From: a virus
Direction: 5' to 3' (one strand)
Length of the DNA: 21,283 nt
IMG/VR virus record: IMGVR_UViG_3300032282_004882
Coordinates: 1 to 21,283 of that record
A model generated the notes under the pieces. That model made no database searches. It was not told the origin of the DNA and was given only the letters and a program-made list of their open reading frames with translations. Shown here piece by piece: positions 19,303 to 21,217 of this stretch. Each line of letters begins with the position of its first letter. The first letter of the stretch is position 1. The translations under genes were made by a program, and so were the position numbers.

Positions 19303-20307
19303 TTAAAGTTCATTCAAACACATATCTTTAACAAGTTCTTTAAAAGAAGTTCTAGGTTCCCATCCTAATTTTGCTTTTGCCTTAGATGCATCACCTAATA
19401 AAGTATCAACCTCAGCAGGTCTAAAGTATTTCTCATCAACAATGACTCTTACAAGTCCAGTATTTTTATCCACACCAAATTCATTATCATAAATATCATT
19501 CTGCCATTCAATATTCATACCAAAATAAGGTGCTGCTTCATTAACAAAATCACGAACCGAATACTGCTCTCCTGTGGAAATTACATAGTCATCAGGTTCA
19601 TCTTGCTGCAGCATCAACCACATCGCTTCTACGAAGTCTTTAGCGTGTCCCCAATCTCGTTTTGCATTTAGATTTCCCAGTTTAAGTACAGTTTGCCTAC
19701 CTTCAGACATTGCTTTGAGTCCTCTGGTGATCTTACGTGTTACAAAAGTTTCACCTCTTCTAGGGGACTCATGATTGAATAGAATACCAGAGCAAGCATA
19801 GATTCCATATGCTTCACGATAATTCTTAGTAATCCAATAGGCGTATACTTTTGAAACTCCATAAGGTGAACGAGGATAAAAAGGTGTAGTTTCTTTTTGA
19901 GGGATTTCTTGGACTTTACCAAACATCTCCGATGTAGATGCTTGATAGATTCTGGTATTATTCTCCATACCAAGCAAACGAACTGCTTCCAAAATACGAA
20001 GAGTTCCAAGACCATCTACCATACCTGTATATTCAGGCATCTCAAAAGACACTTTTACATGACTTTGTGCACCAAGGTTATAAATTTCATCTGGTTGAAC
20101 TTGTTGGATCACTCTTACAAGATTTGTAGAATCAGTAAGATCTCCATAATGGAGATTAATTCGATTAAAAATATGATCAATACGATGTGTATTAATTAAA
20201 GAAGATCTACGAACAATACCATGAACTTTATATCCTTTACTTAGAAGCAATTCTGCAAGATAAGATCCATCTTGCCCTGTAATACCAGTAATCAATGCTA
20301 TTTTCAT
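19303..20307 (-). CDS. gmd: GDP-mannose 4,6-dehydratase
   Basis: A 334-residue SDR with the full Gmd pattern: [15 protein letters not shown] (7-21), [15 protein letters not shown] (32-46), [17 protein letters not shown] (78-94), [13 protein letters not shown] (122-134) with the catalytic Thr and Glu, [10 protein letters not shown] (149-158), and [15 protein letters not shown] (178-192). It turns GDP-mannose into GDP-4-keto-6-deoxymannose, the entry to GDP-L-fucose, and possibly to GDP-colitose-type sugars if the 3-dehydratase accepts it. It is the first gene after the terminator and promoter at 20328-20363, hence probably the first gene of the polysaccharide operon. No clear Shine-Dalgarno lies before the ATG; the leader is AT-rich and unstructured. 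Confidence 0.96.
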
Positions 20308-20327: not shown

Positions 20328-20356
20328 ATTATACCAAAAAAGGAGAGTTTATGCAA
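20328..20356 (-). promoter_or_regulatory. Probable promoter of the polysaccharide operon
   Basis: On the minus strand a perfect TATAAT (20328-20333) is preceded at 17 bases by TTGCAT (20351-20356), a three-of-six match to the -35 consensus. The -35 lies in the loop of the terminator hairpin just upstream. Transcription would start about 7 bases after the -10 and give a leader of some 10-15 bases before the Gmd ATG. This is the only good promoter-like site ahead of the 20-kb gene run; it is a motif call only. Confidence 0.5.
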
Positions 20357-20363
20357 CTCTCCT
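20336..20363 (-). terminator. Intrinsic terminator upstream of the operon
   Basis: The minus strand forms a perfect nine-base-pair stem AGGAGAGTT / AACTCTCCT with a five-base loop (20350-20354), followed directly by a run of T. It would end transcripts of the HNH/tRNA side and of any RNA made from the GC-rich block, separating them from the operon below. The T-run is only on the minus strand, which fixes the direction. Confidence 0.85.
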
Positions 20364-20373
20364 ATCAGGTCTT

Positions 20374-20469
20374 TCATGCACGCCACCAATTCTTTAACTG
20401 GAAATTGGAAACCAGGCGGGAGAGAGTCCCATCCGCACCAACGTCATTTGAGAGATGCCGTAAACTCAT
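20374..20469 (-). CDS. Small frame of 31 codons, possibly the C-terminal part of a degraded gene
   Basis: An ATG at 20467-20469 opens 31 codons ending in a TGA. The peptide ends NFQLKNWWRA and looks protein-like, with two adjacent Trp and a DVGADGTLSRLVS stretch; codon third positions are much richer in G and C than in neighbouring genes. The same frame is open further upstream to 20499 (adding QHWWSQYDPV) but without a start codon there, and is closed by TAA (20500-20502) and TAG (20563-20565). The start overlaps the stop of a 14-codon frame as ATGA. It may be a tiny real gene, a remnant of a longer one, or a by-product of a structured RNA. I do not recognise the peptide with certainty. Confidence 0.3.
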   Translation of the reverse strand: MSLRHLSNDVGADGTLSRLVSNFQLKNWWRA

Positions 20470-20510
20470 AACAGGGTCATATTGACTCCACCAGTGCTGT
20501 TATAGTCCAT
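20466..20510 (-). other. 14-codon frame coupled to the small frame downstream
   Basis: ATG at 20508-20510 followed by 13 codons (peptide begins MDYNSTGGVN) and a TGA whose bases overlap the next ATG as ATGA. It occupies the 7-bp inverted repeat at 20468-20503. No Shine-Dalgarno is visible before it. It could act as a leader for the 31-codon frame or be meaningless. Confidence 0.2.
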
Positions 20511-20598
20511 CCGTGACTTCGAGGGGGTTCCCGACCAGGGCAAGTTTTAAGTCATTCCGAGACTAGTGCTCGATGTTGGTTATGATCCGACCTGTGTT

Positions 20599-20606
20599 GA
20601 TTTATA
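20599..20606 (-). promoter_or_regulatory. Late-promoter-like TATAAATC before the GC-rich block
   Basis: Seven of eight bases match the T4-type late promoter TATAAATA. It lies right after the HNH stop, inside a short TGATTT/AAATCA inverted repeat, and points into the GC-rich block. Weak evidence; AT-rich DNA yields such matches by chance. Confidence 0.3.
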
Positions 20607-20609
20607 AAA

Positions 20610-21095
20610 TCAGTGTTTTCCTGGGAATCTAAACGAGTATTCATTATTCGCAAATAGCAAGTTTTTTTTATTTTTTGCACGATATGTATCAGTTTGTGCA
20701 TGACAGTTTGGACATAAAATACGAAGATTATCTATAGTATTATTATGACGGTTTCCATCAATGTGATCAAGTTCTATCGGTGCTGGTTTTCCATTCCATT
20801 CAGTAATACCACAACATTCACATCTATGTAATTTTAATCCTTCAGATATTAATCTAAGTTTAAGTTTATGGGATGATGGTATTTTTGCACCATTAACTAA
20901 AACATCATTTAGTGGAATAGGTTCAAATCCAGATACTCTAAAATGATTAGTATCTAAATTTAATTCTATTGCTCTTTTTTTAAGAGCAGAATTAGATGAT
21001 CTACATAGATTTAAATCATATGCAACCTCGGCAAAACTTTTACATTTTTTAACTGATTCTCTTAAATCATTATCCGTCCAAGTGCGGGTTTTCAT
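20610..21095 (-). CDS. HNH homing-type endonuclease
   Basis: A 161-residue HNH nuclease. Residues 1-55 look like a small DNA-binding domain: TWTDNDLRESVKKCKSFAEVAYDLNL resembles the helix-turn-helix of phage mobile nucleases. The nuclease core runs from about 88 to 145: zinc pair C92/C95, ELDHIDGNRHNN (108-119) with catalytic D110-H111 and Asn, and LRILCPNCHAQTDTY (124-138) with C128, C131 and H132. Such free-standing enzymes cut intronless or sister-phage DNA and spread with their gene. I take the ATG at 21095 as start, because further upstream the frame runs back into the tRNA gene and loses protein character. It sits 41 bases from the tRNA 3' end, with a late promoter between. It could also belong to a group I intron, but I find no convincing intron core. 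Confidence 0.88.
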   Translation of the reverse strand: MKTRTWTDNDLRESVKKCKSFAEVAYDLNLCRSSNSALKKRAIELNLDTNHFRVSGFEPIPLNDVLVNGAKIPSSHKLKLRLISEGLKLHRCECCGITEWNGKPAPIELDHIDGNRHNNTIDNLRILCPNCHAQTDTYRAKNKKNLLFANNEYSFRFPGKH

Positions 21096-21096
21096 A

Positions 21097-21134
21097 AGTA
21101 GTCGTAAATGTATATAATTATTTATATGACTACT
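21097..21134 (-). promoter_or_regulatory. Hairpin ending just before the HNH start codon
   Basis: AGTAGTC (21128-21134) and GACTACT (21097-21103) form a perfect seven-base-pair stem around a 24-base AT-rich loop, ending one base from the ATG at 21095. In a read-through transcript from the tRNA it could hide the start; a transcript from the late promoter inside the loop would lack the 5' arm. No Shine-Dalgarno is visible. Confidence 0.5.
21119..21126 (-). promoter_or_regulatory. T4-type late promoter TATAAATA
   Basis: A perfect TATAAATA on the minus strand, the consensus of T4-like late promoters, pointing at the HNH gene. Transcription would start about six bases beyond, leaving a leader of about 18 bases before the ATG. 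It supports a T4-like phage source. Confidence 0.55.
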
Positions 21135-21136
21135 AA

Positions 21137-21211
21137 TGGGAACACTGGGCCTTGAACCCAGACAAGACACCCGTTATAAGCAGGCCGCTCTTCCAATTAA
21201 GCTATGCTCCC
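21137..21211 (-). tRNA. tRNA-Ile(UAU)
   Basis: The minus strand folds as a full cloverleaf: acceptor stem GGGAGCA/TGTTCCC (21205-21211 with 21138-21144), D-arm GCTT/GAGC with an AATTGGAA loop, anticodon stem GCCTG/CGGGT with loop CTTATAA, and T-arm CTGGG-TTCAAGG-CCCAG. The anticodon at 34-36 is UAU, so it would read AUA (Ile), a codon that the AT-rich genes in this window use often. The variable region is seven bases (GTCTTGT), longer than the usual four or five. CCA is not encoded, the discriminator base is A. No intron. It may compensate for a low supply of this tRNA in the host. Confidence 0.88.
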
Positions 21212-21217
21212 ATAAAA

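Follow-up and report, generated by a model that had tools for sequence, protein, structure and literature searches.

We asked what kind of RNA is encoded by the GC-rich block that lies between an HNH endonuclease gene and a run of sugar genes in this phage DNA. The window, the whole stretch of 21,283 bases from an IMG/VR virus record, carries its long ORFs on the minus strand, in the order tRNA-Ile (anticodon tat, 21136–21212), HNH endonuclease ORF (20610–21170; PF13392 and PF01844), GC-rich block (20364–20607) and gmd (19303–20307), the first gene of the downstream operon, encoding a GDP-mannose 4,6-dehydratase (PF16363, 504 bits). The HNH ORF probably starts at an ATG near 21095, rather than at its listed start, 21170. 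The Pfam search within the window covered the HNH and gmd products only, and in our own reading of the translations, positions 1–20307 form a long run of genes on this one strand, many of which resemble nucleotide-sugar and glycosyltransferase genes. A first-pass annotation, made from the sequence alone, had regarded the block as an independent RNA gene without known relatives. Here we report that the minus strand of the block encodes a composite RNA element, and not one single unknown RNA. The source appears to be a T4-like cyanophage, in which the block occupies a gene boundary and consists of two small units, A and B, a wcaG RNA and a terminator/promoter-like element, followed by the nucleotide-sugar operon led by gmd.

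Sequence features of the block

The raised GC content that drew attention to the block was confirmed, as its 244 bases have a GC content of 0.475 against 0.326 in the window, above 99.8% of the same-size windows. The three perfect inverted repeats of 6–7 bp described earlier do exist, but shuffled sequences contain 2.27 of them on average, and 119 of 300 shuffles reach three. One, TGACTT/AAGTCA, consists of P1 strands of the two neighbouring units pairing with each other, and another, CCAATT/AATTGG, is a stem of wcaG. Furthermore, single-sequence folding of the block (−74.1 kcal/mol, z −0.62) was no better than chance. The case for an RNA from inverted repeats and folding energy of this single sequence is thus weak, and the stems become convincing only through comparison with homologues. 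As for the late-promoter-like box proposed at one end, the motif TTTTATAAATC is indeed present at 20599–20609 on the minus strand, directly behind the HNH stop codon, but a promoter role for it found no support.

The wcaG half

The statement that the block matches no known family held for one part of it. A cmscan search identified 20372–20469 (minus strand), 40% of the block, as a full-length wcaG RNA (RF01761, model positions 1–98) with 98.3 bits against a gathering score of 42 (E 4.5e-18), whereas 20474–20564 is without an Rfam match; no Rfam 15 family, wcaG included, was detected in 20470–20607 at E ≤ 5. A study of 2010 introduced wcaG as a candidate riboswitch, present in marine metagenomes and in T4-like cyanophages close to genes for exopolysaccharide and high-light functions; the riboswitch function in the 5' UTR that it proposed is unproven (Weinberg et al. 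2010, PMC2864571). The present copy resembles the published RNA in being full-length and high-scoring and in lying ahead of exopolysaccharide-type genes in an apparently T4-like cyanophage (PMC2864571). Indeed, gmd lies directly downstream in the window, and epimerase-type genes are found behind wcaG arrays in relatives. In contrast, the published family comprises only the 98-nt domain, while here two uncatalogued pseudoknot units precede it and a terminator with a promoter-like box stands behind. We found no description of either the units or the terminator with its promoter-like box in the open-licence literature, which is weak as evidence of absence.

Tandem pseudoknot units

Positions 20474–20564 of the minus strand contain two tandem copies, A and B, of a 29–31 nt unit, each with a hairpin after it. 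The unit is built of a 4-bp stem P1, a 7-nt loop NYGGNNN, an A-rich linker and an invariant CTGGT, and then comes a hairpin of variable length. In the core of unit A (20534–20564), P1 is formed by AGTC (20561–20564) and GACT (20550–20553) around the loop TCGGAAT (20554–20560), with TAAAACTTGCC as the linker ahead of CTGGT, and the following hairpin 2, CGGGAACCCCCTCG, occupies 20520–20533. Covariation among 77 distinct homologous cores identified two further pairs, C20559–G20541 and A20556–T20542, between loop and linker; since such pairs cross P1, they constitute a pseudoknot. The core of unit B (20490–20518) has the same P1 strands and CTGGT, the loop ACGGATG, a linker shorter by 2 nt and the loop–linker pair C20513–G20497. 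Its hairpin 2, GGAGTCAATATGACCC, lies at 20474–20489, and the arms GTC(A)/(T)GAC are among the commonest pairs behind CTGGT.

A BLAST search with 20470–20607 matched 80 phage records, nearly all of them from Synechococcus phages, and pattern scans of IMG/VR collected at least 588 copies of the unit in at least 420 loci (346 A and 242 B), mostly from T4-like cyanophages, with sequences related by descent counted separately. The scan patterns fixed CTGGT, GG and the A-rich linker, so that these positions are invariant in part because of the search itself. Behind CTGGT, a hairpin whose length varies is present in 221 of 328 distinct homologues, as compared with 90 of 328 after shuffling. When the relatives were searched against Rfam 15 at E ≤ 1 or 0.5, only wcaG and tRNA scored over the cut-off, and no match fell on unit A of S-RIM8 (L004). 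The first half of the block thus holds two copies of a small pseudoknot RNA that is absent from Rfam.

Compensatory changes establish that the units fold as RNA. The 77 A cores had been picked by a stem filter (at least three of the four pairs), with no filter on the pseudoknot pairs, so that the pseudoknot counts are the cleaner test. As a result, 97.2% of the cells were paired, and two-sided changes occurred in all six pairs, four in P1 and two in the pseudoknot; the covariation score was 0.615, against 0.201 for shuffled cores (0 of 500 shuffles reached the observed score) and at most 0.084 when the alignment was slid. The covariation claims rest on scans in which the tested positions were left free, and not on earlier patterns that fixed them. 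In a scan that put no constraint on P1, loop 5, loop 8 or linker 22 and restricted linker 23 to A or G, all 52 distinct full-stem matches among those listed were Watson–Crick at both pseudoknot positions. The pair between loop 5 and linker 23 was C–G in 41 and U–A in 11, and that between loop 8 and linker 22 was G–C in 29, A–U in 19 and U–A in 4, taking all three forms even within the AGTC/GACT stem background alone. A nearly identical pattern, scanned for cellular homologues through the GTDB bacterial genomes, gave mostly chance matches, with the stem in 4 of 121. The earlier view that the minus strand encodes a structured RNA of the phage is thus borne out for 20474–20564, and compensatory changes, the kind of evidence that the first-pass annotation had asked for, were found in both P1 and the pseudoknot pairs of unit A. 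For unit B, a scan without constraint on the loop–linker pair found it kept in 25 of 25 distinct copies, and stem changes were compensated; since this pair is C–G in 24 of the 25, the evidence comes mainly from the stem and from the likeness to unit A, and appears thinner than for unit A.

In two sequences, L010 (Syn30) and L206, a change of loop G7 to A accompanies one of linker C25 to U, a hint of a third pseudoknot pair (loop 7/linker 25) that we do not claim from two sequences only. A protein-coding reading of the units was rejected, because the length of hairpin 2 varies by non-multiples of three and the changes are compensatory.

Genomic place of the units

The units are linked to wcaG. 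By the exact pattern, isolate genomes hold between zero and two A units and no more than one B, with one to three copies per genome, and a wcaG match was also present in 15 of 16 isolate genomes, 13 of them above the cut-off. Among the matches listed, wcaG was found on the same strand, no more than 700 nt further downstream, in 205 of 329 arrays, but stood upstream in 7 of 365 and on the opposite strand in 0 of 329; the wcaG of relatives was recognised here, as in the terminator tally below, by a strict text pattern, so that these numbers are undercounts. The distances from unit to wcaG fall into two groups, roughly 0–150 nt (direct) and 250–400 nt, and in the latter a small ORF can sit between them, encoding either phrog_2318 (e.g. 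L018) or a protein beginning MATxGTAxKSA (L001). The linkage is not absolute, since unit and wcaG lie far apart in S-RIM8, S-RIM50 and WH25-B. The product of phrog_2318 is small and probably membrane-spanning, and its gene begins immediately after unit A or B in about 100 loci (among them L018, L057, L077 and L122). In ACG-2014j (L015, 1001–1100) and near 6307 of L143, unit A is fused to the second half of wcaG in place of the first hairpin of wcaG, which suggests that the domains are exchangeable, by shuffling between the two RNAs.

Free units, with no wcaG directly behind, are linked to start codons: among the matches listed, a start codon follows within 60 nt in 156 of 223, at a peak distance of 15–18 nt, with the ORFs of the IMG/VR loci called by simple rules. 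Some free units precede a terminator instead, as in S-RIM50 (L013). Units A and B thus combine two marks of a riboswitch, a conserved aptamer-like fold with covariation and a location next to a possible expression platform. The proposal of an independent RNA gene was not upheld, as the units occupy intergenic positions on the coding strand, with a start codon often immediately behind them. The downstream genes are varied and include phrog_2318, sugar epimerases, nucleotidyltransferases and 2OG-Fe(II) oxygenases. In addition, 62 A units lie within 20 nt of a tRNA among the matches listed.

In L013, L020 and L082, the tRNA-adjacent unit A is directly followed by a small terminator-like hairpin, as if attenuating the tRNA cluster. 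The stop codon of the upstream ORF is overlapped by 54 units among the matches listed; in L327, L328, L346, L355 and L358, the first unit falls within the final codons of that ORF, and the stop TAA belongs to the linker of the unit.

Terminator and promoter-like element behind wcaG

The strong intrinsic terminator noted at the far end of the block was confirmed at 20341–20363 on the minus strand, with a 9-bp stem and a T-run; written as AGGAGAG-TTGCATAAA-CTCTCCT with the full T-run, it extends over 20336–20363. It is overlapped by a promoter-like element at 20328–20356 on the same strand, in which TTGCAT (20351–20356) lies in the terminator loop and is separated by 17 nt from TATAAT (20328–20333). 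The link of wcaG to a terminator is general: an intrinsic terminator stands behind wcaG in 69 of 107 distinct cases among the matches listed, versus 1.5% in shuffles, and in 76 distinct relatives its stems carry compensated changes on either side of the loop TTGCATAAA, which the search had fixed. TTGCAT-17-TATAAT occurs in at least 124 distinct copies in the fetched loci, while permuted hexamers give 0–5, and at least 95 of the 124 have a wcaG-like sequence upstream together with the hairpin and T-run. The start codon lies a median of 21 nt beyond the composite, which is also seen at L021, L022, L046, L093, L176, L326 and other loci.

Judging from its sequence, TTGCAT-17-TATAAT would act as a promoter, and the sugar operon therefore need not depend on the RNA. 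With the terminator and promoter-like box behind it, a simple 5' UTR role of wcaG is uncertain here. Complementarity of the terminator arms to their own upstream RNA was 6.79, against 6.58 to that of other loci, without convincing excess for antiterminator pairing; since the arms hardly exceed other loci, no direct antiterminator is visible.

Discussion

On an evenly balanced judgement, we regard the block as a modular, cis-regulatory composite RNA at a gene boundary, placed here ahead of a nucleotide-sugar operon. A covarying pseudoknot around an invariant GG, near start codons and less often terminators, resembles a riboswitch or a protein-binding leader. Each unit may act as an aptamer-like domain for a ligand or for a protein of phage or host, with its fold controlling the sequence behind it. 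Where a unit stands free, hairpin 2, which lies within about 15–18 nt upstream of the AUG, would control the access of ribosomes; in arrays such as the present one, the units together with wcaG would set the share of upstream transcription that passes the terminator, and the overlapping promoter would supply a baseline for the sugar genes. More specifically, and only tentatively, the tandem unit may represent a new class of very small cyanophage pseudoknot riboswitch (or nuclease-blocking RNA) that works with wcaG as a multi-domain element, with the terminator loop doubling as a promoter box for the operon behind. Doubt comes chiefly from the mixed downstream genes, which give no pointer to one metabolite, the absence of a visible antiterminator, and the promoter-like element, which would let the sugar operon start alone.

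Small H-type pseudoknot riboswitches, such as preQ1-I, have a short P1 and a loop paired to an A-rich 3' linker, near a start codon or terminator. The units resemble these in the short P1, the loop–linker pairing and the place by a start codon or terminator, but differ in sequence, loop size and pairing register, and are without an Rfam match. Another cyanophage RNA, manA (RF01745), was named together with wcaG (PMC2864571) and lies in the same tRNA-rich region of S-CREM1 (PMC9964418) as wcaG. The unit is distinct from it, as it has no match to RF01745, and in S-CREM1 it adjoins wcaG, several hundred nt from manA.

Among the other explanations, it is rather unlikely that the units serve primarily in stability or processing, the pseudoknots blocking host ribonucleases or marking cuts between genes and tRNAs, so that either the following mRNA is protected at its 5' end or the preceding one at its 3' end. 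Such a role would suit their tandem arrangement ahead of unrelated genes and their position in the narrow intervals that separate a stop codon or tRNA 3' end from the gene behind, including the many A units near tRNAs; however, the peak distance to the start codon suggests an effect on translation, and a roadblock would need neither two alternating unit types nor a fusion to wcaG. It is unlikely, too, that A-B-wcaG serves as the 3' UTR of a transcript covering tRNA and HNH, or as a small RNA of its own that ends at the terminator, with the sugar operon using its own promoter. The frequent terminator behind wcaG, overlapped by TTGCAT-17-TATAAT shortly before the start codon, and the late-promoter-like box are as this explanation expects. 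Yet free units immediately precede start codons, with no terminator, the direction and order (unit, then wcaG) are kept, and no common promoter was found in the upstream flanks of the units listed.

An operator for a phage-encoded RNA-binding protein seems less probable still. T4-like phages use mRNA operators bound by RegA, gp32 or gp43, and the units, in one to three copies per genome, recall these (gp32 pseudoknot, RegA and gp43 operators) as structured elements near start codons of T4-like phages. In contrast to such operators, they precede unrelated genes, occur in tandem copies and are fused to wcaG; no known RNA-binding repressor gene lies behind the element in the loci examined, and a pseudoknot with invariant GG and CTGGT is equally aptamer-like. 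Finally, the earlier suggestion of an intron piece carried with the HNH gene, here a group I intron fragment, can be set aside as highly improbable. An HNH gene does adjoin the block on its upstream side in the window, but the search at E ≤ 5 gave no match to a group I intron family, and HNH was annotated beside the element in 0 of 16 isolate loci.

Work on wcaG, an orphan riboswitch candidate since 2010, now has to reckon with a covarying domain that often precedes it and with the terminator-promoter behind; both alter the choice of constructs for cloning and testing. Dozens of isolate genomes carry the unit, and isolates such as S-SM2, S-CAM1 and Syn30 are directly usable. Should the unit indeed respond to a metabolite or stop a host nuclease, it would be a control point in the remodelling of host sugar and envelope metabolism by cyanophages.
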